Source of the DNA: Frankiales bacterium
Lineage (GTDB): Bacteria; Actinomycetota; Actinomycetes; Mycobacteriales; SCTD01
NCBI GenBank assembly: GCA_025965475.1
Contig: JAOPWV010000069.1
Span: 1 to 64,000 of the forward strand
Reading direction: 5' to 3'
Length of the DNA: 64,000 nucleotides
Part shown: positions 20,143 to 51,781 of the stretch, piece by piece
How the letters are laid out: each line of letters opens with the position of its first letter
Numbering within the stretch: the stretch's first letter is position 1
The notes under the pieces: generated by a model
Told to the model about the DNA's origin: nothing
Databases searched by the model: none
Seen by the model: only the letters and a program-made list of their open reading frames with translations
Program-made: the position numbers and the translations under genes

Positions 20143-20934
20143 GTGCGCCGCCTTTCCGTACCGCTCACCGCTCTCGCCGCCGCCGCCGGGCTGCTCGCCG
20201 GCTGCGGTGGATCCACCGGCTCGCAGGCGACGAGCAAACCGGCGAACGCGTCGGCATCGGTGACGGGCACCGTCAACGTGTTCGCGGCGGCGTCGCTGCA
20301 GAAGGCGTTCACGAAGCTGGGCGCCCAGTTCGAGGCGGCCCACCCGGGTACGAAGGTGGTCTTCAACTTCGGCCCGAGCTCCGGGCTGGCCCAGCAGATC
20401 GGTCAGGGCGCCCCGGCGGACGTGTTCGCCTCGGCGAGCACCAAGAACATGGACCAGGTCGTGTCCGGCGGCGAGGCGGCGAAGCCGACGAACTTCGTGG
20501 CGAACAGGATGCAGATCGCGGTGCCGCCGAAGAACCCCGCGGGCATCACCACGGTCGCCGACCTGGCCGAGAAGGGCGTCAAGGTCGCGCTGTGCCAGGC
20601 ACAGGTGCCGTGCGGAGCGACGGCGCTCAAGGTGTTCGACAAGGCGAAGGTCACGGTCACCCCGGTCACCCAGGAGGTCGATGTGAAGGCGACCCTGAGC
20701 AAGGTCAGCCTCGGCGAGGTGGACGCCGGAGTCGTCTACGTCACCGACGTCCTGTCCGCCGGCGACAAGGTCAAGGGCATCGCGATCCCGGACGACGTCA
20801 ACGCCTCGACCATCTACCCGATCGCGACGCTGACCGGGTCGAAGAACGCCGCCACCGCGCAGGCGTTCGTCGACTACGTCCTGTCCCCCGACGGGCTCGC
20901 GGTGCTGACCGCCGCCGGGTTCGCCAAGCCGTAA
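20143..20934 (+). CDS. modA: Molybdate ABC transporter substrate-binding lipoprotein
   Basis: Lipobox LLAGCGG; GTVNVFAAASLQKAFTKLGAQFEAAHPGTKVVFNFGPSSGLAQQIGQGAPADVFASAS. Start GTG 20143. Confidence 0.93.
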   Translation: MRRLSVPLTALAAAAGLLAGCGGSTGSQATSKPANASASVTGTVNVFAAASLQKAFTKLGAQFEAAHPGTKVVFNFGPSSGLAQQIGQGAPADVFASASTKNMDQVVSGGEAAKPTNFVANRMQIAVPPKNPAGITTVADLAEKGVKVALCQAQVPCGATALKVFDKAKVTVTPVTQEVDVKATLSKVSLGEVDAGVVYVTDVLSAGDKVKGIAIPDDVNASTIYPIATLTGSKNAATAQAFVDYVLSPDGLAVLTAAGFAKP

Positions 20935-20981
20935 CCGGGTTCGAGCGAGGTACCGCACGACGACCAGGCAGGCTGTCCGGC

Positions 20982-21853
20982 ATGAGCGCACGACCCGACC
21001 GCACCCGGGCCACACCGTCCGGCGCACCGCGGCCCAGGGATCCACGGCGGGTCGCCGACCCGTCGCAGCGGGGCGGGGTCCCGTGGCCCCTCGGGCTGCC
21101 CGCGCTGGTCACCGTCGCGTTCCTGCTGCTGCCCCTGGCCGGACTGCTGGTCCGCGCCCCGTGGCGCAGCCTCGGCCGGCTCCTCGTCGAGAGCCAGGTC
21201 GTCGACGCCCTGCGTCTGTCCCTCATCTGCGCCAGCGCCGCGACTGTCCTGTCCCTGCTGTTCGGGGTGCCGCTGGCATGGGTGCTGGCCCGGGCCACCT
21301 TCCGCGGCCGAGGGCTGCTGCGGGCTGCGGTCACGCTGCCGCTGGTGCTGCCGCCCGTCGTCGGCGGTGTCGCCCTGCTGCTCGCGTTCGGCCGGCGCGG
21401 CATCGTCGGGCAGTACCTCGACTCCTGGTTCGGGATCACCCTTCCGTTCAGCACGGTGGGCGTCGTGATCGCCGAGACGTTCGTCGCGATGCCCTTCCTC
21501 ATCGTCACGGTCGAGGGCGCCTTCCGTACCGCCGATCGCGGCTACGAGGAGGCAGCCGCGACCCTGGGTGCGTCCCGGCTGACCGTGTTCCGGCGCGTCA
21601 CCCTGCCTCTCATCGGCCCGTCGCTGGTGGCCGGCTCGGTGCTGTGCTGGGCCCGGGCGCTGGGTGAGTTCGGGGCCACCATCACCTTCGCCGGCAACTT
21701 CCCCGGCCGCACCCAGACGATGCCGATCGCGGTGTACCTCGCGCTCGAGAGCGATCCGGAGGCGGCCATCGCCCTGTCCCTGGTCCTGCTCGCCGTCTCC
21801 ATCGCCGTGCTGGTCGGGCTGCGTGACCGTTGGCTGAACACGGGGACCGCGGC

Positions 21854-21857
<4 letters not shown>
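20982..21857 (+). CDS. modB: Molybdate ABC transporter permease
   Basis: LRLSLICASAATVLSLLFGVPLAWVLARATFRGRGLLRAAVTLPLVLPPVVGGVALLLAFGRRG, RALGEFGATITFAGNFPGRTQTMPIAVY. Confidence 0.93.
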
Positions 21858-23005
<1,148 letters not shown>

Positions 23006-27167: not shown

Positions 27168-29660
27168 TTAGCTGCGCTGCTCCTTCTGCTGCTCCCGTGC
27201 TGCGAGCACGGTCGCCACGATGTCCGACGGCTTGACCGGCAGGTTCTGCACGTGCATACCGAACTCGCGCAACGCGTCGTCGATGGCTGCCGAGATGACG
27301 CCGGGCGTCGCCATGCGGCCACCCTCGCCGCCACCCTTGATGCCGTACTCGGTGTACGGCGACGGGGTCTCGACGTGGCCGAGCTTCATGGCCGGGATCT
27401 CGTTGGCCGTCGGGATGAGGTAGTCCAGGAAGGTCGAGGACTTGAACTGCCCGTCCTCGTCGTAGGCCAACTCCTCGAGCAGGGCTGTACCCACACCCTG
27501 CGCCGTTCCACCCGTGACGTGACCGCCCAGGGTGATCGGGTTGACGATCGTCCCGGCGTCATGGACGGCGACGTAGTCCAGCCACGTCGTCATGCCGGTG
27601 TCCGGGTCGACCTCCATGACCGCGATGTGGCAGTTGTGGCCCATGATCGGGTAGAAGATGCCCAGATCGCTGCGGTCCGGCGAGGGCAGCGTGGTGAGCG
27701 GGTGGTCGTACGTGTGCTGCTCCTCCAGGCCGCTGGTCATGCCCGGGGGCAGGTTCAGCGCGAAGAAGTACGCCGTGGCGGCCACCTCGCCAAGGCTGAG
27801 GCCGACCTCGGGGGCGCCCTTCACCTGCACCCGCGCGTCGGTGATCTCCATGTCCTCCGGCGGCACCTCGAGGGTGTGCGCGGCGATCTCGATGATCTTC
27901 TTCTGCAGTTTCTTCGCCGCGCCCCGGATCGCGCCGGTCACCATGACGGTGAAGCGGCTGCCGCCGGGGCCGGTGCCGGGCAGGGCGTGCGCCGAGTCGG
28001 CGTACCGGATATTGACCTTGTCCGGCTCGACGCCGAACTCCTCGGCCACGACCATCGCCGCGACCGTCTCCGGGCTGTTGCCCCACATGGCCTGCGAGTG
28101 CAGCAGCACCTGGAACTCGCCCGAGGGGTCGATCGTGATCGTCGCGCTCTCCGGGCTGGAGGTGATCGGGAACGCCGGCTCGTCGAACCAGTACCAGAAC
28201 TCGGTGGAGCTGAAGACGCTGCGCTCCTGGGTGGTGACCAGGCCGATGCCGATGTAGCGGTTCTCCTCCTCGCGCAGGCGCTTCTTCTCCTTGCGCCAGT
28301 GCTCGAGGTCGATCATCGACAGTGCCTTGTCCAGCACGGCCTCGTAGTCGCCGCTGTCGTAGAGGTTCCCGCCCGGGATCTTGTGCGGGAACTGCTCCGG
28401 CTGGATGAAGTTCTTCCGGCGGATGACCTCGGGGGCCATGCCCAGCTTCTCGGCGGCCTGGTCGACCAGCCGCTCGAGCACCCAGTTGTGCACCTCGGAG
28501 CCGAAGCCGCGGTAGGCGCCCTGCTGGCACTTGTTGGTGAGCACCGCGCGCAGGTGGTAGCGCAGGTTGTTGAAGTTGTACGGGCCGACGCCCTGCGACA
28601 GCGCGTTGCCGTGCGTGCCCACGCCGAACTGCAGGTACGCGCCGTAGTCGTCGACGACGTCGACGTCCATGCCGACGATGGTGCCGTCGCACGTGAGCGC
28701 CAGCTTCGCCTCGTAGTAGCGATCCGACGCGTGGTGGTCGGAGTTCATCAGGTGGTCGAGCCGGTCCTCGACGTACGACACCGGGCGGTTGACCTGCAGC
28801 GCCAGGAAGCCGGCCAGGGTCGGCACCTTGTGTGCGGTGAACTTGCTGCCGAAGCTGCCGCCCGCTGGGACGGGGTTGATCGTCACCCGGTTGCTGGGCA
28901 GCTTGAGAGCGGTCGCGATCAGCCACACGAAGTAGCTGAAGTTCATCGAGTTGCAGTAGATCTCGAGCACGCCGTTGAGGCCGGGCTTGCCGATCGCCCC
29001 GGTGGTCTCCAGCGGCATGCCCGCCGAGCGACCCCAGTGCAGGGTGTCGGAGACGACGAGGTCGGCGCGCTCGAACGCCTCGTCCACCTCACCGAACGTG
29101 AAGCTCCGCTCGTAGGCCAGGTTGCTGCCGTGTCCCTCGTGCAGCAGGGCCGCGTCCGCCTCGAGCGCCTTGAACGGGTTCACCACCGGCGGGAGCTCCT
29201 CGAACTCCACGTCGAGCGCGTCCACGCCGTCCTCGGCGAGGTACCGGGTGTCGGCGATGACGGCGACGACGGCCTCGCCGACGTACCGGACCTTGTCCAC
29301 CGCGAGCGGGTACTGGGGGATCGTCGACGGACCGAAGTTCATGCAGGGGTTCATCTTCGCCCTGCAGTCCTCACCGGTGACCACGGCGATGACGCCGGGG
29401 ATGGCGAGGGCGGCAGTGGCGTCGATGGAGACGATCCGGCCGTGCGCGACCGGGCTGCGGAAGATGGCGGCGTGCGTGAGGCCGGCGATCTTCTGGTCGG
29501 CGATGAAGCCACCGCGACCGGTGAGCAGCCGCGGGTCCTCGACCCGCTTCATGCTGCGGCCGATGTACTTGCGCTTGACCTGCCCACCGGAGGGGGCAGC
29601 GGCCTCGGCGGCGCGGGCCAAGGCGTCGTTGAAGGCGTCATTGGTCGTGTCGGAGGTCAT
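27168..29660 (-). CDS. Xanthine dehydrogenase-family molybdopterin-binding subunit (CoxL-like, not a canonical CO dehydrogenase)
   Basis: VGEAVVAVIA, GGSFGSKF, AYRGFGS at the CoxL signature position, C-terminal GIKGGGEGG with the presumed catalytic Glu. Start trimmed to ATG 29660. Confidence 0.92.
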   Translation of the reverse strand: MTSDTTNDAFNDALARAAEAAAPSGGQVKRKYIGRSMKRVEDPRLLTGRGGFIADQKIAGLTHAAIFRSPVAHGRIVSIDATAALAIPGVIAVVTGEDCRAKMNPCMNFGPSTIPQYPLAVDKVRYVGEAVVAVIADTRYLAEDGVDALDVEFEELPPVVNPFKALEADAALLHEGHGSNLAYERSFTFGEVDEAFERADLVVSDTLHWGRSAGMPLETTGAIGKPGLNGVLEIYCNSMNFSYFVWLIATALKLPSNRVTINPVPAGGSFGSKFTAHKVPTLAGFLALQVNRPVSYVEDRLDHLMNSDHHASDRYYEAKLALTCDGTIVGMDVDVVDDYGAYLQFGVGTHGNALSQGVGPYNFNNLRYHLRAVLTNKCQQGAYRGFGSEVHNWVLERLVDQAAEKLGMAPEVIRRKNFIQPEQFPHKIPGGNLYDSGDYEAVLDKALSMIDLEHWRKEKKRLREEENRYIGIGLVTTQERSVFSSTEFWYWFDEPAFPITSSPESATITIDPSGEFQVLLHSQAMWGNSPETVAAMVVAEEFGVEPDKVNIRYADSAHALPGTGPGGSRFTVMVTGAIRGAAKKLQKKIIEIAAHTLEVPPEDMEITDARVQVKGAPEVGLSLGEVAATAYFFALNLPPGMTSGLEEQHTYDHPLTTLPSPDRSDLGIFYPIMGHNCHIAVMEVDPDTGMTTWLDYVAVHDAGTIVNPITLGGHVTGGTAQGVGTALLEELAYDEDGQFKSSTFLDYLIPTANEIPAMKLGHVETPSPYTEYGIKGGGEGGRMATPGVISAAIDDALREFGMHVQNLPVKPSDIVATVLAAREQQKEQRS

Positions 29661-29664
29661 CGCG

Positions 29665-30240
29665 TCAGGCTCCCGGGTTCTGGTCGGAGGAGCCGCCGGT
29701 ACCGGTACCCGCGGCGATCGGTGCCGGGGAGCCGGCACGGAGCTTGCGGGCCGCGCACTGCACCGAGTTGATGATGTTCTGGTAGCCCGTGCAGCGGCAG
29801 AGGATCCCGGAGATATCCTGGCGGACCTCCTCGTCGGTCCGTTCGCGGCCGTCGGCCAGGATCTCCTTGGTACGCAGGACCATGGCCGGTGTACAGAAGC
29901 CGCACTGCAGGCCGTGCTCCTCCTGGAAGGCCTCCTGGATCGGGTGCAGTTTGGTCTGGTCGCTCGACAGGCTCTCCACCGTCTCGACGTCCCGGCCGTT
30001 GACCTGCGCGGCCAGCATCAGGCAGGCACGCACCGACTGGCCGTCGAGCAGGATCGTGCAGCATCCGCACACGCCGTGCTCGCAGCCGAGATGAACGCTG
30101 ACCAGGTCGAGCTCGTCGCGCAGCCAGTCGGCGAGGGTGGTGCGGGTGTCCACCACGCCGGACACGTCCCGCCCGTTCACGCGCGCGGTGATCGTGCGCT
30201 GCAGCGTCGGATCCACGCCGCCCTGGGTCTGGATCGTCAT
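29665..30240 (-). CDS. (2Fe-2S)-binding subunit of molybdenum hydroxylase (CoxS-like)
   Basis: HLGCEHGVCGCCTILLDGQSVRACL and QCGFCTPAMVL...GILCRCTGYQNI, both [2Fe-2S] motifs. Confidence 0.95.
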   Translation of the reverse strand: MTIQTQGGVDPTLQRTITARVNGRDVSGVVDTRTTLADWLRDELDLVSVHLGCEHGVCGCCTILLDGQSVRACLMLAAQVNGRDVETVESLSSDQTKLHPIQEAFQEEHGLQCGFCTPAMVLRTKEILADGRERTDEEVRQDISGILCRCTGYQNIINSVQCAARKLRAGSPAPIAAGTGTGGSSDQNPGA

Positions 30241-39513: not shown

Positions 39514-40482
39514 TCAGGCGCGCACGGACAGCGACAGTGCGAAGTCGCCCGCCGGATCCGTCCACCAACGGAGCATCCGCAGGCCGGCCTCGGCGAGCTC
39601 CGCCTCCACGCCCGCCCGGCGGAACTTCGCCGAGATCTCCGTGCGCATCTCCTCGCCCGCGGCGAAGGGCACCACGAGGTTCAGCGTCGGCACCTGGACG
39701 CGCTGCGCCTTCACCGACCTCAGTCGCATCTCGATCCAGGCCCGGTCCGCGTCCCACAGCGCCACATGGTCGAACGCGGCCGGATCGAAGTCGGCGCCCA
39801 GCTCACGGTTGATCACGGCCAGCACGTTGCGGTTGAACGCTGTCGTCACACCAGCCGGGTCGTCGTACGCCGCGATGAGCCGGTCCGGGTCCTTGACCAG
39901 ATCCGTGCCGAGCAGGAACGCGTCGCCCGGCTCGAGCGCGTCCCGCACCGCGGCCAGGAACCGCCCGCGGGCCCCCGGTTCGAAGTTGCCGATGGTCGAG
40001 CCGAGAAACCCCACGAGCCGCCGGCCGTCGCGCGGCAGCATGCCCAGGTGCCGTTCGAAGTCGCCCACGACAGGGCTGACCTCGAGCGCCGGGTACTCGT
40101 CCGCGAGGGCGGCCCCGGCCCGGCTGAGCACCGCGCCGTCCACGTCGAAGGGCACGAACCGGCGCAGAGTGCCGGCGTCGCGCATGGCGTCCAGCAGGAG
40201 CCTGGTCTTCTCGGACGTCCCGCTGCCGAGCTCCACCAGCGTCTCCCCGCCGGTGAGCTCGGCGATCTCGGCGGCGTGGGCCGCGAGCAGGCCGCGTTCC
40301 GTGCGCGTCGGGTAGTACTCCGGCAGGCGGGTGATCTCGTCGAACAGCTCGCTGCCGCGCTCGTCGTAGAAGTACTTCGGGGGGAGCGATTTCGGTGAGC
40401 GGGTGAGGCCGGCCAGCACGTCGCTGCGCAGCGCCTCGGTGTACGCGGACGGGGGCAGGTAGGTCGCGACGGGGCCGGGCAT
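39514..40482 (-). CDS. egtD: L-histidine N(alpha)-methyltransferase
   Basis: [73 protein letters not shown]. Confidence 0.95.
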
Positions 40483-40523
40483 CTGCAGGACTCCTTGCTC
40501 AGAAGGTCAGGGCCGCTCGGAGG

Positions 40524-41792
40524 TCACGGGTCCCAGGCCAGGCGCACCCCCGCGAAGATCTGCCGCCGGATCGGCAGGTCCCAGTTGCGGAACGACGGCC
40601 GGACGGCGCCTCCAGCCGTGGCCCACGACCCGCCCCGGAGCACCCGGAAGTCGCCCCCGAAGAAGGGCGCGCTGTACGTGGCGTACAGCATCGGTGTGAA
40701 GCCGGGCCACGGCCGGAACTCCGACGAGGTCCACTCCCAGACGTCGCCGACCATCTGCTCGACGCCGTACGCCGACGGGCCCGCCGGATAGGCACCGACC
40801 GGGGCGGGCCGCAGGGCGTCTCCCCCGAGGTTCGCGCGGTCCCGCGTCGGCGGCCCGTCACCCCAGGGCCAGCGGCGCCGGCGACCGGCGACCGGATCCC
40901 ATGCGCATGCCTTCTCCCATTCGATCTCGCTGGGCAAGCGGGCCCCCGCCCACGCGGCGAAGGCCTGCGCCTCGAAGTAGCAGACGTGCTGCACCGGCTC
41001 GTCCCACGGGATGTTCTCGACGATGCCGAAGCGGAGCCGGGCACCGTCCCGCGTCCAGAACAGGGGGCGCTCCAGACCCGCCTCCGCGACGTGCCACCAG
41101 CCCCGGGCCGACCACCATTGCGGCTTCGCGTAGCCGCCGTCGTCGACGAAGGCCTGCCACTGGGCGTTGGTCACCGGGACGCGGCCGATGCGGAAGGCCG
41201 GTACGTCGACGACGTGCGCGGGTCGCTCGTTGTCGAGGGACGACGGTTCGGTCGCCCCGTCGACGCCGACGAGGCACTCGCCGGCCGGCACGAGCAGGGC
41301 ATCGGGCAGACCGCCGGTCGTCGCGTCGCCGCTCGGCAGAACCACGCCCGGGCCGAGCAGCGCCGGACCGCGTCGGAGCTGGTGGGTCGCGAGCATCGTC
41401 TCGTCGTGCTGCTGCTCGTGCTGCTCGACCATCGCGTACGGGAACAGGTCCTCGGCGCGATCCAGACCGTCGAGGACGCGACCGCGCACCTCCGCGAGGA
41501 AGCCCCGGGACTGCGTCGGCGAGAGCAGCGGCAGCGACGGCCGCTCCGCCCGCGGGTGCTGGAAGGCGTCGTACAGCCCGTCGATCTCGGCAGGCAGGAC
41601 CCCCTCCCGCCGGGCGTCGCCCTGGCGCAAGAGCCAGAGGTCCTCCTGCTGACCGACGTGCGCCAGGTCCCACACGAGCGGGCTCATCAGCGGGCTGTGC
41701 TGCCGGAGGAGCTCCGGCTCGTCGAAGCAGGTCAGTCCCAGCGTGCGTTCCCTGGCCCGCTCCAGACCCGCCGCGATCTCCTCACCACGCAT
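40524..41792 (-). CDS. egtB: Ergothioneine biosynthesis sulfoxide synthase
   Basis: [34 protein letters not shown] (metal ligands), FGE-sulfatase-like C-terminus [28 protein letters not shown]. Confidence 0.93.
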
Positions 41793-43074
41793 GCGCTGCC
41801 GCCTCCAGTACCGCGAGCGGCCCGTGCCGGTCCGCCTGCTCGCGCACCTCATCTCCCGGGCTTCGGCCTCGCGTCACCAGTTCGGCGTACTCCTCGACCT
41901 CGCGCCGGAGATCCACGGGGCAGCGTTGGGCGGCCAGCTCGACACACCGACGGGCGGCGCGCGCGACCCGCGGATCGTCCAGTCCGTCACGGGCAGCGAC
42001 CGACCAGGCGCCCGCGAGCGGTTCGCACGCTTCAGCCGCCCCGTCCGCCACCACCGCGTCGTCGAGCAGGGTGACGGTGAGCGCCGCGAGCCCCGGCCAC
42101 CAGCGGTCGGGCACGGCGTCCAGGCACCGGAGCTCCACGAATCCGCGCAGGCGGACCGGCGGGAAGAGCGTCGACAGGTGGTAGTCCAGGTCGGCCACCG
42201 TGGGCATCCGTCCGGCGAGCGCGCGCTCCTCGGAGAGCCAGGCGAGGAACGGGACCCGGTCGGTCACCGGCACGGCCTCACCGGTGTCCGGGTCGCGCAC
42301 CAGCATCACCGGCGCTGCCATCGCGTAGGACGCCCAGTCCTGCCTGGGATCGGTGCCCTCAGGGGCCGGGCCGCACCGCGCCTGATCAAGCTGGCCCCAG
42401 ACCTGCTGACGCATCGACCGCCAGCCGGTCCGGCGGCCACCCAGGACCGGGGAGCACGCCGAGATCGCCACCAGGACGGGGCCGAGCCGGTTCAGGTGCC
42501 GCATCCGCGACGACCAGCAGCTGGCGGGCCCGGCATCCACGTTGATCTGGAGCGCGGCGGTCGCGCACATCATGGCCCGCGCCGCGGTACCGCAGCCGGC
42601 CGCATCGAAGTGCCTTTCCATCGCGGCGTACCGGCTCGCCGGGTTGACCCGCTGGGCCGGCCGGGCGGGGTCGGTGCCCAGCGACGCCAGACCGAGCCGG
42701 CTCGCGGCCAACGCGGCGGACAGGGCCGTCCTGTCCTCCCGCAGAACCCGTACGGCCGAGCGCACGTCGGGCATGGGCAACGTGGAGAGTTCGAGCTGAC
42801 CGCCCGGTTCGACGGTGATCCGGCTGCCGCCGGGCATCACCGGCACCCTCGCCAGCAGCCCGCTGACCTCCGGCCATTCAAGGCGCCGTCCCGGGCGCTG
42901 AAGGTCGACAAGATGGAACTCCAGCTCCAGCCCGACACGGCCGTGCGGCGTGGGGCTCAGGGCCCGGGCCTCCGCGTGGGCCCGCGCTTCCTGCTCCGAG
43001 GCGAGGGCCACGCAGGCATCGGCGACGGCGAGTTGAGCGGCCATCCGCCCCCTCCAGGTCCGGACCGGTCGCAC
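41782..43074 (-). CDS. egtA: Glutamate-cysteine ligase family protein, ergothioneine type
   Basis: [41 protein letters not shown]; overlaps egtB start. Confidence 0.9.
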
Positions 43075-48120: not shown

Positions 48121-48426
48121 ATGGCAGACAACGGCACGAGCAAGACGACGACCGACCACGACGAGATCCGCCGCTGGGTCGAGGAGCGGGGCGGCCGACC
48201 GGCACGGGTGAAGGGCACCGACCGCGGCGGCGACGACGTGGGCATCCTGCGGATCGACTTCCCCGGGGTGGGCGCCGAGGAGGAGTCCCTGGACCCGATC
48301 TCGTGGGACGAGTTCTTCAAGGAGTTCGACGAGAAGCAGCTGGCGTTCCTGTATCAGGAGCGGACGGCCGACGGTCAGATAAGCCGGTTCAACAAGTTCG
48401 TGAGGCGGGACGCCGCGAAGAGTTGA
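48121..48426 (+). CDS. Small acidic protein of unknown function
   Basis: MADNGTSKTTTDHDEIRRWVEERGGRPARVKGT...DPISWDEFFKEFDEKQLAFLYQERTADGQISRFNKFVRR; natural-looking composition. Confidence 0.75.
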   Translation: MADNGTSKTTTDHDEIRRWVEERGGRPARVKGTDRGGDDVGILRIDFPGVGAEEESLDPISWDEFFKEFDEKQLAFLYQERTADGQISRFNKFVRRDAAKS

Positions 48427-48436
48427 TGCGGCCGGC

Positions 48437-51400
48437 TCAGGACCCCTGCGGGTCCGCGGCACCCGCGGGCACCCCCGTCGCCAGCGTGACGTGGGCGCGA
48501 CGGCGATAGCCGGCGACGTACTCCAGGAGCGCCGGGCCACGGGGACGACGGCCGGGCCGGACGTCACAGGTGAGGACCTTGGTGTCCTGGATCAGCACGT
48601 TCGGCTCGAGCGCGATCCCGAACAGGTCGTTGACGACGTCGCCGGTCACCAGGCCGGTGTGGCCCCAGTGGTACGGCATCCAGATCTGGTGCACGACCCG
48701 GTCCTGCACCCGCAGCGGCACGAGGCGGTCGGTGACGACCACGCGCGCCTCCACCGCGGTCCGGCTCGTCACCACATGGCCCCAGCCCAGGTGCTGCAGC
48801 CCCCGCTCCGCGGCCAGTTCGGGCGAGACCTCCATGAACAGCTGCGGCTGGAGCTCCGACAGGTACGGCAGCCACCGGCTCATCCCGCCTGCCGTGTGGT
48901 GCTCGGTCAGCCGGGAGGTCGTCATCACGTAGGGGAAGACATCCCCGAACGGCTCGGGCGGCGACGGGTTCGACGGGTTGTCCGGCCGGGGGTAGACGAT
49001 GCGCGTCGGGTTGCTCTGCTGTCCGTAGAGGAGGTTACGGACCGGCGACTCGTGCGGCTCGTAGTGCGTCGGCATCGGTCCGTCCAGCAGGCCTCGCGGC
49101 GCGAACAGCCAGCCCTTGCCGTCCGCCTGCATGATGAACGGGTCGTCGCCCCGCAGCGCCGCCGGCCCCACGGCGTCCGGGGGCGGTACGTACGTCGGCG
49201 GCTTGGTGCGCTCGAAGTCCGGCACGTCCTCCCCGGTCCACTCCCCGCGCTCCTCGTCCCACCAGACGCAGGCCTTGCCCTCACTCCACGGCCTGCCCTG
49301 CGGGTCCGCCGAGGCCCGGTTGTAGAGGATCCGTCGGTTGTACGGCCAGACCCACCCCCACTCGAGGGCGTAGAAGGTCTGCTCGTCGCGTGGCCGGCGC
49401 CGTGCCGCCTGGTTGACCCCGCCGGCGTAGACGCCGCTGTAGATCCAGCATCCGCACGAGGTCGACCCGTCCGCCTTGAGGTCCATGTAGCCGTCGACGA
49501 GCCGGCCCGTGGTGAGGTCCGAACCGTTGATGTGCCGCAGGACGTCCTGCCCGGAGGGCTCGTCCCCGTCCACCTCGTAGTCCCAGGCGAGGTCGAGCAG
49601 CGGACGGTCGCGGTCGTCCGTCGAGGCGGCCAGCCGATCCTTCAGGAGCCGTCCCAGGTGGTAGAAGAACCACAGCTCCGAGCGCTGGTCCCCCTTGGGC
49701 TCGAGCGCCTTGTCCCGCCACTGCAGCATCCGCTGCGTGTTGGTGAACGTGCCCTCTTTCTCGACGTGCGAGGCAGCCGGGAAGAAGAAGACCTCGGTGC
49801 GGCACTGCTCCGGCACAAGCTCGCCGGTCTCCACCTCGGGCCCGTCCTTCCAGAACTCCGCGCTCTCGATCATCGCGAGATCGCGCACCACGAGCCAGTC
49901 GAGGTTCGCCATGCCGAGCCGCTGGAGCCGGCCGTTCGCCGAGCCGACAGCCGGGTTCTGCCCGAGCAGGAAGTAGCCGTAGACCGTCCCGTCGACCATG
50001 TCCATCGCGGTCCGGTACGTCCCGTGGTCGCCGGTGATCTTCGGGAGGTAGTCGAAGCAGAAGTCGTTGTCCTTGGTCGCGGCATCCCCCCAGTACTCCT
50101 TGAGCAGGGAGACGATGTAGGTGTCGGCGTTGCGCCAGAACCCCTTCTGCTTGTCCGCACGGATGCTGTCGATGTAGCTGGTGAGGTCCCTGTGCGACGT
50201 CCCGACCGGCATCGGCAGATACCCGGGCAGCAGGTTGTAGAGCGTCGGAATGTCCGTGGAGCCCTGGATGCTGGCGTGGCCGCGCATCGCCATGATCCCG
50301 CCGCCCGGCCGGCCGATCTGCCCGAGGAGCAGTTGGATGATCGACGCGGCGCGGATGAACTGCGCACCCAGGCTGTGCTGCGTCCAGCCCACCGCGTACA
50401 CGACCGCCGACGTCCGCTCCCGCCCCGAGTTGCGGGTCCACGCCTCACAGACCTGGGCGAACAATTCCGGAGGCGTGCCGCAGATCTGCTCCACCACCTC
50501 GGGCGTGTACCGCGCGAAGTGCCGCTTGAGCACCTGGTAGACGCAGCGTGGATCCTGCAGCGTCGGATCGGCCGGAATGTCGCCGGTCACGTCCTCCAGC
50601 ACCGGTCCGCCGGCTCCGTGCTGGTGGCCGGTGGCCAGCTCCCGCGCCTCCTCCGGCGAGGTGTCCCCGACGTCCGCTGCCGGGACGCCCGCGTACTGCC
50701 AGGTCGCCGTGTCGTACGCCCTCGTCTGCGGATCGAAGCCGCTGAACAGCCCGTCGAGATCCTCGGTGTCCCGGTAGTCCTCGTTCAGCAGGAACGACGC
50801 GTTCGTGTACGGCAGCACGTACTCGCGGAAGGCGAGGTCGTTGGTCAGGATGTGGTTGATCACCCCGCCGAGGAACGCGATGTCGGTGCCGGCGCGCAGC
50901 GGGACGAACTGATGGGCCAGTGCGCTGGTACGGGTGAACCGCGGATCGATGTGGATGACGGTGGCGCCGCGGTTCTTCGCCTCCACGACCCACTGGAAGC
51001 CGACCGGGTGCGCCTCGGCCATGTTCGAGCCCATGATGATGATGCAGTCGGACTTCGACAGGTCCTGCTGGTAGTCGGTGGCGCCGCCGCGCCCGAACGA
51101 GGTGCCCAGACCGGGCACGGTGGCGGAGTGTCATATGCGCGCCTGGTTCTCGATCTGCACGGCGCCCAGCGCGGTGAACAACTTCTTGATGAGGTAGTTC
51201 TCCTCGTTGTCCAGGGTGGCTCCGCCGAGGCTGGCTATGCCCATCGTCCGGCGCACCCGGTGGCCGTGCTCGTCGATGTCCTGCCACCCCTTGCGCCGGG
51301 CGTCGAGGACCCGGTCGGCGACCATGCCCATGGCGTCGTCGAGACCGAGTTCGCGCCAGGAAGTGCCGTACGGCGGCCGGTACAGCACTTTCTGCTCGCG

Positions 51401-51700
51401 CTGCGGGCCGGTCACCAGCTGCTTGCTCGCCGAGCCCTTCGGGCACAGGCGCCCGCGGGAGATCGGGCTCTCGGGGTTGCCCTCGATCTGGATGACCTGC
51501 TCGTCCCGGACGAAGACCCGCTGGGCGCAGCCGACCGCGCAGTACGGGCAGACGGAGCCGGCCTCGATGTCCGCGGTCGCGATGCGGGGCCGCACCCCGG
51601 CGTAGCGCGGCGACTGCACTGCCCGTCCGCGGGCCAGTGGGTCGGGTGAGGTGAGCTGCCGGTAGACCGGCCACCGCTCGACCCACTCCCGAACGCCCAC
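48437..51700 (-). CDS. Formate dehydrogenase alpha subunit, selenocysteine-containing (in-frame TGA at 51131-51133)
   Basis: Two track ORFs (51745..51131 and 51118..48437) are in one frame: CPYCAVGCAQRVFV...GRLCPKG...LFTALGAVQIENQARI-[TGA]-HSATVPGLGTSFGRGGATDY. Matches the FdnG/FdoG pattern NQAR-U-H. GTG start 51700 inferred (alternative 51745). Confidence 0.93.
51102..51133 (-). promoter_or_regulatory. Bacterial SECIS-like element downstream of the UGA
   Basis: Minus strand: TGA-CACTCCGCCACC-GTGCCC-GGTCT-GGGCAC. 6-bp apical stem with GGUCU loop, loop starting 18 nt after the UGA. Confidence 0.8.
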
Positions 51701-51781
51701 GCCGCACCTCCGTCCTCCGGCGCTACCCCCGTCGACGTGACACAACCGGCGCTGTCCGAGGCGTGATCACAGGCCTAGCGT

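Follow-up and report, generated by a model that had tools for sequence, protein, structure and literature searches.

Does the in-frame TGA that interrupts a formate dehydrogenase gene of a Frankiales bacterium end translation, or does it encode selenocysteine (Sec)? The window, by which we mean the whole 64,000-nt stretch that was analysed (contig JAOPWV010000069.1), carries on its minus strand two ORFs, 51745..51131 and 51118..48437, which a plain ORF caller delivers as separate halves of the gene. The initial annotation had joined them into a single gene split by a TGA, and the joining holds: the frame is open from the internal TGA (51133-51131) down to a second TGA (48439-48437), both pieces fall within one 1919-bit profile match, and 74 of the best 80 homologues have TGA at exactly that codon. 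The profile match and the homologues together show that the TGA-split frame is not due to chance.

The complete alpha-subunit gene occupies 48437..51700 of the minus strand, with a GTG start at 51700, 1087 codons including that for Sec, and the stop TGA at 48437-48439. The start codon was picked by comparison with relatives, whose N-termini agree with it (own VGVREWVERWPVYRQLT versus MGVGDWLRSWPVYRQLT in Amycolatopsis, L029). Counted from this GTG, the Sec codon (minus strand, 51131..51133) is codon 190, so that both the coordinates and the codon number proposed earlier were right; its placement follows from aligned-codon counts in the homologues and from the Sec (X) of the solved enzymes 1h0h and 1kqf. 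Around the site the minus strand reads ATC GAG AAC CAG GCG CGC ATA TGA CAC TCC GCC ACC GTG CCC GGT CTG GGC ACC. The NQAR-U-H context that had been described needs a small amendment: the Sec site does lie within NQAR...H, in the exact form NQAR-[I/V]-U-H, where one residue (here I) separates R and U.

The 1087-residue read-through product scores 1919 bits against the actinobacterial formate dehydrogenase model NF041513.1 of NCBIfam (formate_DH_Act; cut-off 1400) over 1063 residues, and 915 bits against TIGR01553 (FDH-N alpha; cut-off 814); the C-terminal part by itself scores 1563 and 761, respectively. Pfam domains on the minus strand appear in the order of the alpha-subunit architecture: the N-terminal Fe4S4 domain of molybdopterin oxidoreductases (PF04879, residues 64-111, 51413..51556), the molybdopterin oxidoreductase domain (PF00384, residues 169-625, 49871..51241), which spans the TGA, and the C-terminal molybdopterin dinucleotide binding domain (PF01568, residues 940-1048, 48602..48928). 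The internal TGA aligns with the Sec residue of 1h0h and of Escherichia coli FdnG (1kqf), the latter as the initial annotation had expected. These two enzymes share with the window protein the Sec at the aligned position, the Fe4S4 and molybdopterin domains and the overall length class. FdnG carries a twin-arginine leader, whereas by inspection no such motif is apparent at the N-terminus of the window protein.

Closer relatives are known from Actinomycetospora chiangmaiensis, in which formate removal or oxidation is selenium-dependent, FdhA1 and FdhA2 (1078 and 1089 aa) are predicted Sec formate dehydrogenases, and SelA, SelB and SelD are expressed (PMC7176365). The window gene resembles FdhA1 and FdhA2 (PMC7176365) in length (1087 aa), in-frame Sec codon, downstream SECIS and a family score above the cut-off, and differs from the actinobacterial FdhA1/FdhA2 type in having no adjoining fdhB or nrfD. 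It is an ordinary further member of the known actinobacterial Sec formate dehydrogenase family.

The Sec sites were compared in an alignment of the best 80 homologues from named genomes; the aligned codon is TGA in 74 of them, TGC (cysteine) in four and TAG in two. A quick tree puts all four Cys genes into a single clade, so they look like the product of one Sec-to-Cys change. Both TAG genes, from Modestobacter and Blastococcus MAGs (L062, position 5478; L096, position 431), have the SECIS intact. UAG-coded Sec with an anticodon-CUA tRNA is reported for Geodermatophilaceae (ref. 56 of PMC5330540); formate dehydrogenases of this kind share their protein family and hairpin with the window gene, which uses the standard UGA. 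One further homologue (L160, on contig C295 of genome G019) contains an additional in-frame TAG 23 codons ahead of its Sec TGA and is possibly a pseudogene.

A bacterial SECIS hairpin, GUGCCC-GGUCU-GGGCAC, lies at 51102..51118 on the minus strand, beginning 13 nt after the Sec codon, and is recognized by invariant codons and covariation. A hairpin 13-29 nt past the Sec codon (GUN CCC GGU CUG GGN') is common to every TGA or TAG gene. We examined it in a set of 78 Sec genes, namely 76 of the best 80 homologues, the window gene and a paralogue on contig C52 of the same genome. In all 78, codon +6 is CCC, codon +7 is GGT or AGT and codon +8 is CTG or TTG (CCC-[GA]GT-[CT]TG), AGT being found in four genes and GGT in the remainder; the four Cys genes lack the invariant hairpin codons, having different ones at +6 and +7. 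GGT is rare: the window gene uses it for six of its 109 GGN codons and the pooled genes for 171 of 1815 (9%). CCC accounts for 25% of pooled Pro codons. Set against these frequencies, the invariance of CCC and the use of GGT in all but four genes indicate selection at the RNA level.

Of the alignment cells of the helix GU[N]CCC-GGUCU-GGG[N']AC, 99.7% are paired; all slid-helix controls do worse (at most 68% of cells paired). Its variable pair (columns 18/30), formed by synonymous third positions, occurs as C-G, U-A, U-G and G-C, that is, with compensatory changes; double-sided changes are seen in 18 cells against a shuffled mean of 5.2. The minimum-energy fold of the single 54-nt sequence chooses another, longer hairpin (z -2.19) over the conserved short one, so the support for the SECIS is comparative, not energetic. 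An Rfam scan of the whole window gave no matches. The loop resembles that of the E. coli fdhF SECIS (GGUC), which stands equally far from its UGA.

Selection on the protein tells the same on either side of the TGA. Pairwise comparison of the window gene with three homologues (L026, L027 and L028) gave pN/pS of 0.13-0.15 over 0.40-0.44; with L026 the values are about 0.15/0.39 before the TGA and 0.13/0.43 after it, and this similarity indicates that the sequence past the TGA is maintained as protein. Four independent lines support reading codon 190 of this formate dehydrogenase alpha subunit as Sec: conservation of the site as TGA, TAG or Cys, its alignment with the Sec of solved enzymes, a covarying hairpin confined to the Sec genes, and purifying selection that is equally strong before and after the codon.

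The same evidence bears on two other readings of the TGA. A sequencing error or nonsense mutation at 51131-51133 of a Cys enzyme could be entertained because this is a single draft assembly, though nothing specific points to it; TGA at the site in 74 other genomes (among the best 80 homologues) refutes it. The TGA of the C52 paralogue also speaks against it, as does the presence of a Sec-type hairpin unlike the sequence of the Cys genes, and we regard such an error as extremely improbable. The idea that UGA is read genome-wide as another amino acid, such as Trp, has nothing in its favour and practically no probability left: it is refuted by the use of TGA as an ordinary stop here, including that of the window gene itself, and homologues carry Sec or Cys at this residue.

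The C52 paralogue is a second Sec formate dehydrogenase alpha gene (C52:29859-33143, L115), 65% identical to the window copy and with a single TGA; its SECIS loop is AGU instead of GGU. Next to it come fdhB and an nrfD-like gene, in a complete fdhA-fdhB-nrfD operon of normal layout, with selD further along. A tree places the C52 copy among those of its own family, but the window copy with ones from Frankiales, Acidimicrobiaceae and other actinobacterial MAGs, two same-family genomes among them. In 78 of the best 80 relatives, both of these tree-neighbouring same-family genomes included, the gene directly downstream is fdhB, yet neither fdhB nor nrfD was found anywhere in the 64,000-nt window, and the usual place of fdhB is occupied by a small convergent ORF of 101 aa with no family (plus strand, 48121..48426). 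The window copy is therefore a free-standing alpha subunit. It probably lost its partners, either as an old paralogue or as a copy that was transferred. An adjacent fdhB/nrfD pair is the usual operon arrangement and does not define the alpha subunit itself.

The initial annotation had looked to selA, selB and selC for a decision, and the genome gives a mixed answer. The draft assembly (3.89 Mb, 215 contigs, 98% complete) has selD complete on C52, the 5′ end of selA and both halves of selC; selA is cut at a contig end, selC is split and selB was not found. Of selA only a 5′ stub is present, codons ~3-33, right at the end of contig C178; it was found with a mycobacterial SelA query, the NCBIfam model alone having matched no selA in this genome, and a pirin gene lies near it, as also in the same-genus genomes G002 and G003. 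Searches of the draft for selB with the NCBIfam model, one protein and a three-sequence profile returned only other GTPases. In Mycolicibacterium (L036) and in same-family G011, selB directly follows selA, so selB would fall into the selA assembly gap here. This region is break-prone: selA is cut by contig ends in other genomes of the family (e.g. G013, G019 and G022, where the selA matches start at contig bases 4-5), and the G003 contig ends about 1 kb past selA.

Genomes of the same genus hold selA, selC and selD, and in G001-G003 selC is normal, with anticodon UCA; ARAGORN calls three same-genus selC genes, and no tRNA in the window. One of these genomes, G002, has selA, selC and selD (L155, L194) yet no close Sec formate dehydrogenase homologue; another selenoprotein may keep the machinery, or the dehydrogenase gene may be unassembled. 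In the present assembly no intact selC was found, only two separated halves. One, C145:3491-3552 (L024), agrees with same-genus selC at 62 of 62 positions over the 3′ half, from the anticodon loop onward, and on its 5′ side is unrelated, mobile-element-like DNA with a DUF5343-like ORF that scores just below its cut-off. An Rfam match here as intact selC was rejected, as the 3′ half is fused to unrelated DNA and ARAGORN calls no tRNA there. The 5′ half, at C52:44866-44912 (L154), with about 250 bp between it and the contig end, is decayed, with 5 changes in 45 nt relative to same-genus G001. The likeliest arrangement, we infer, is an integrative element for which selC served as attachment site, the intact copy being absent from the assembly.

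These findings could also mean that Sec decoding was recently lost, with selC split by the integrative element and selB gone, and that the window gene, now ended by the TGA, has only lately become a pseudogene. The separated selC halves, the truncated selA, the missing selB and the five substitutions in the selC 5′ half all lean that way. Against such a loss, both Sec formate dehydrogenase genes retain intact frames, SECIS and low pN/pS, and selD is intact; the perfect selC 3′ half is what would be expected of a recently displaced attachment-site copy with an unassembled intact partner, and in genomes of the same family, too, contig ends interrupt selA and selB. On balance we hold a recent loss to be very unlikely. 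Scarcely better are the prospects of a free-standing Sec paralogue that works with the FdhB/NrfD of the other operon, or with a different electron acceptor, in a genome with a mobile element in selC, which we rate as unlikely; were this so, and no intact selC to exist, Sec decoding would need a split tRNA gene.

A Sec-decoded formate dehydrogenase alpha subunit with distant electron-transfer partners is the explanation that we hold with high confidence, even though no intact selC and no selB were found in this 98%-complete draft, selA sits at a contig end, the 54-nt fold prefers another hairpin and the window has no fdhB/nrfD. The gene encodes the catalytic (alpha) subunit of an actinobacterial formate dehydrogenase, whose metal would be molybdenum or tungsten. 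The ribosome would read UGA codon 190 as Sec by way of the SECIS 13-29 nt downstream in the mRNA, recognized by SelB, which presumes working selC and selB in this strain. The selenium of Sec would coordinate the active-site metal, formate would be oxidized to CO2, and the electrons would pass to an FdhB/NrfD module not adjoining the gene, for which the second Sec formate dehydrogenase operon, on C52, is the nearest known candidate. What is unusual here is the lack of fdhB/nrfD partners and the broken selC.

The window also carries genes for a molybdate-type ABC transporter and for a molybdenum hydroxylase that resembles aerobic CO dehydrogenase (20592-23005 and 27168-29738). Ergothioneine genes (egtD, egtB and an EgtA-like ORF) lie at 39514-43074, the EgtB-like protein matching selenoneine synthase SenA below its cut-off. 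There is also a cluster of type III glutamine synthetase, glutamate-synthase-domain and sarcosine-oxidase-like genes, which may serve methylamine use; formate oxidation is plausible in such a C1-using actinobacterium.

The result makes whole a gene that simple ORF calling splits. The 78-gene picture of the actinobacterial SECIS, with its [GA]GU loop and covarying closing pair, could improve the automatic annotation of selenoproteins, and Sec formate dehydrogenase is seen to be spread over soil actinobacteria, including a free-standing copy and TAG and Cys variants.
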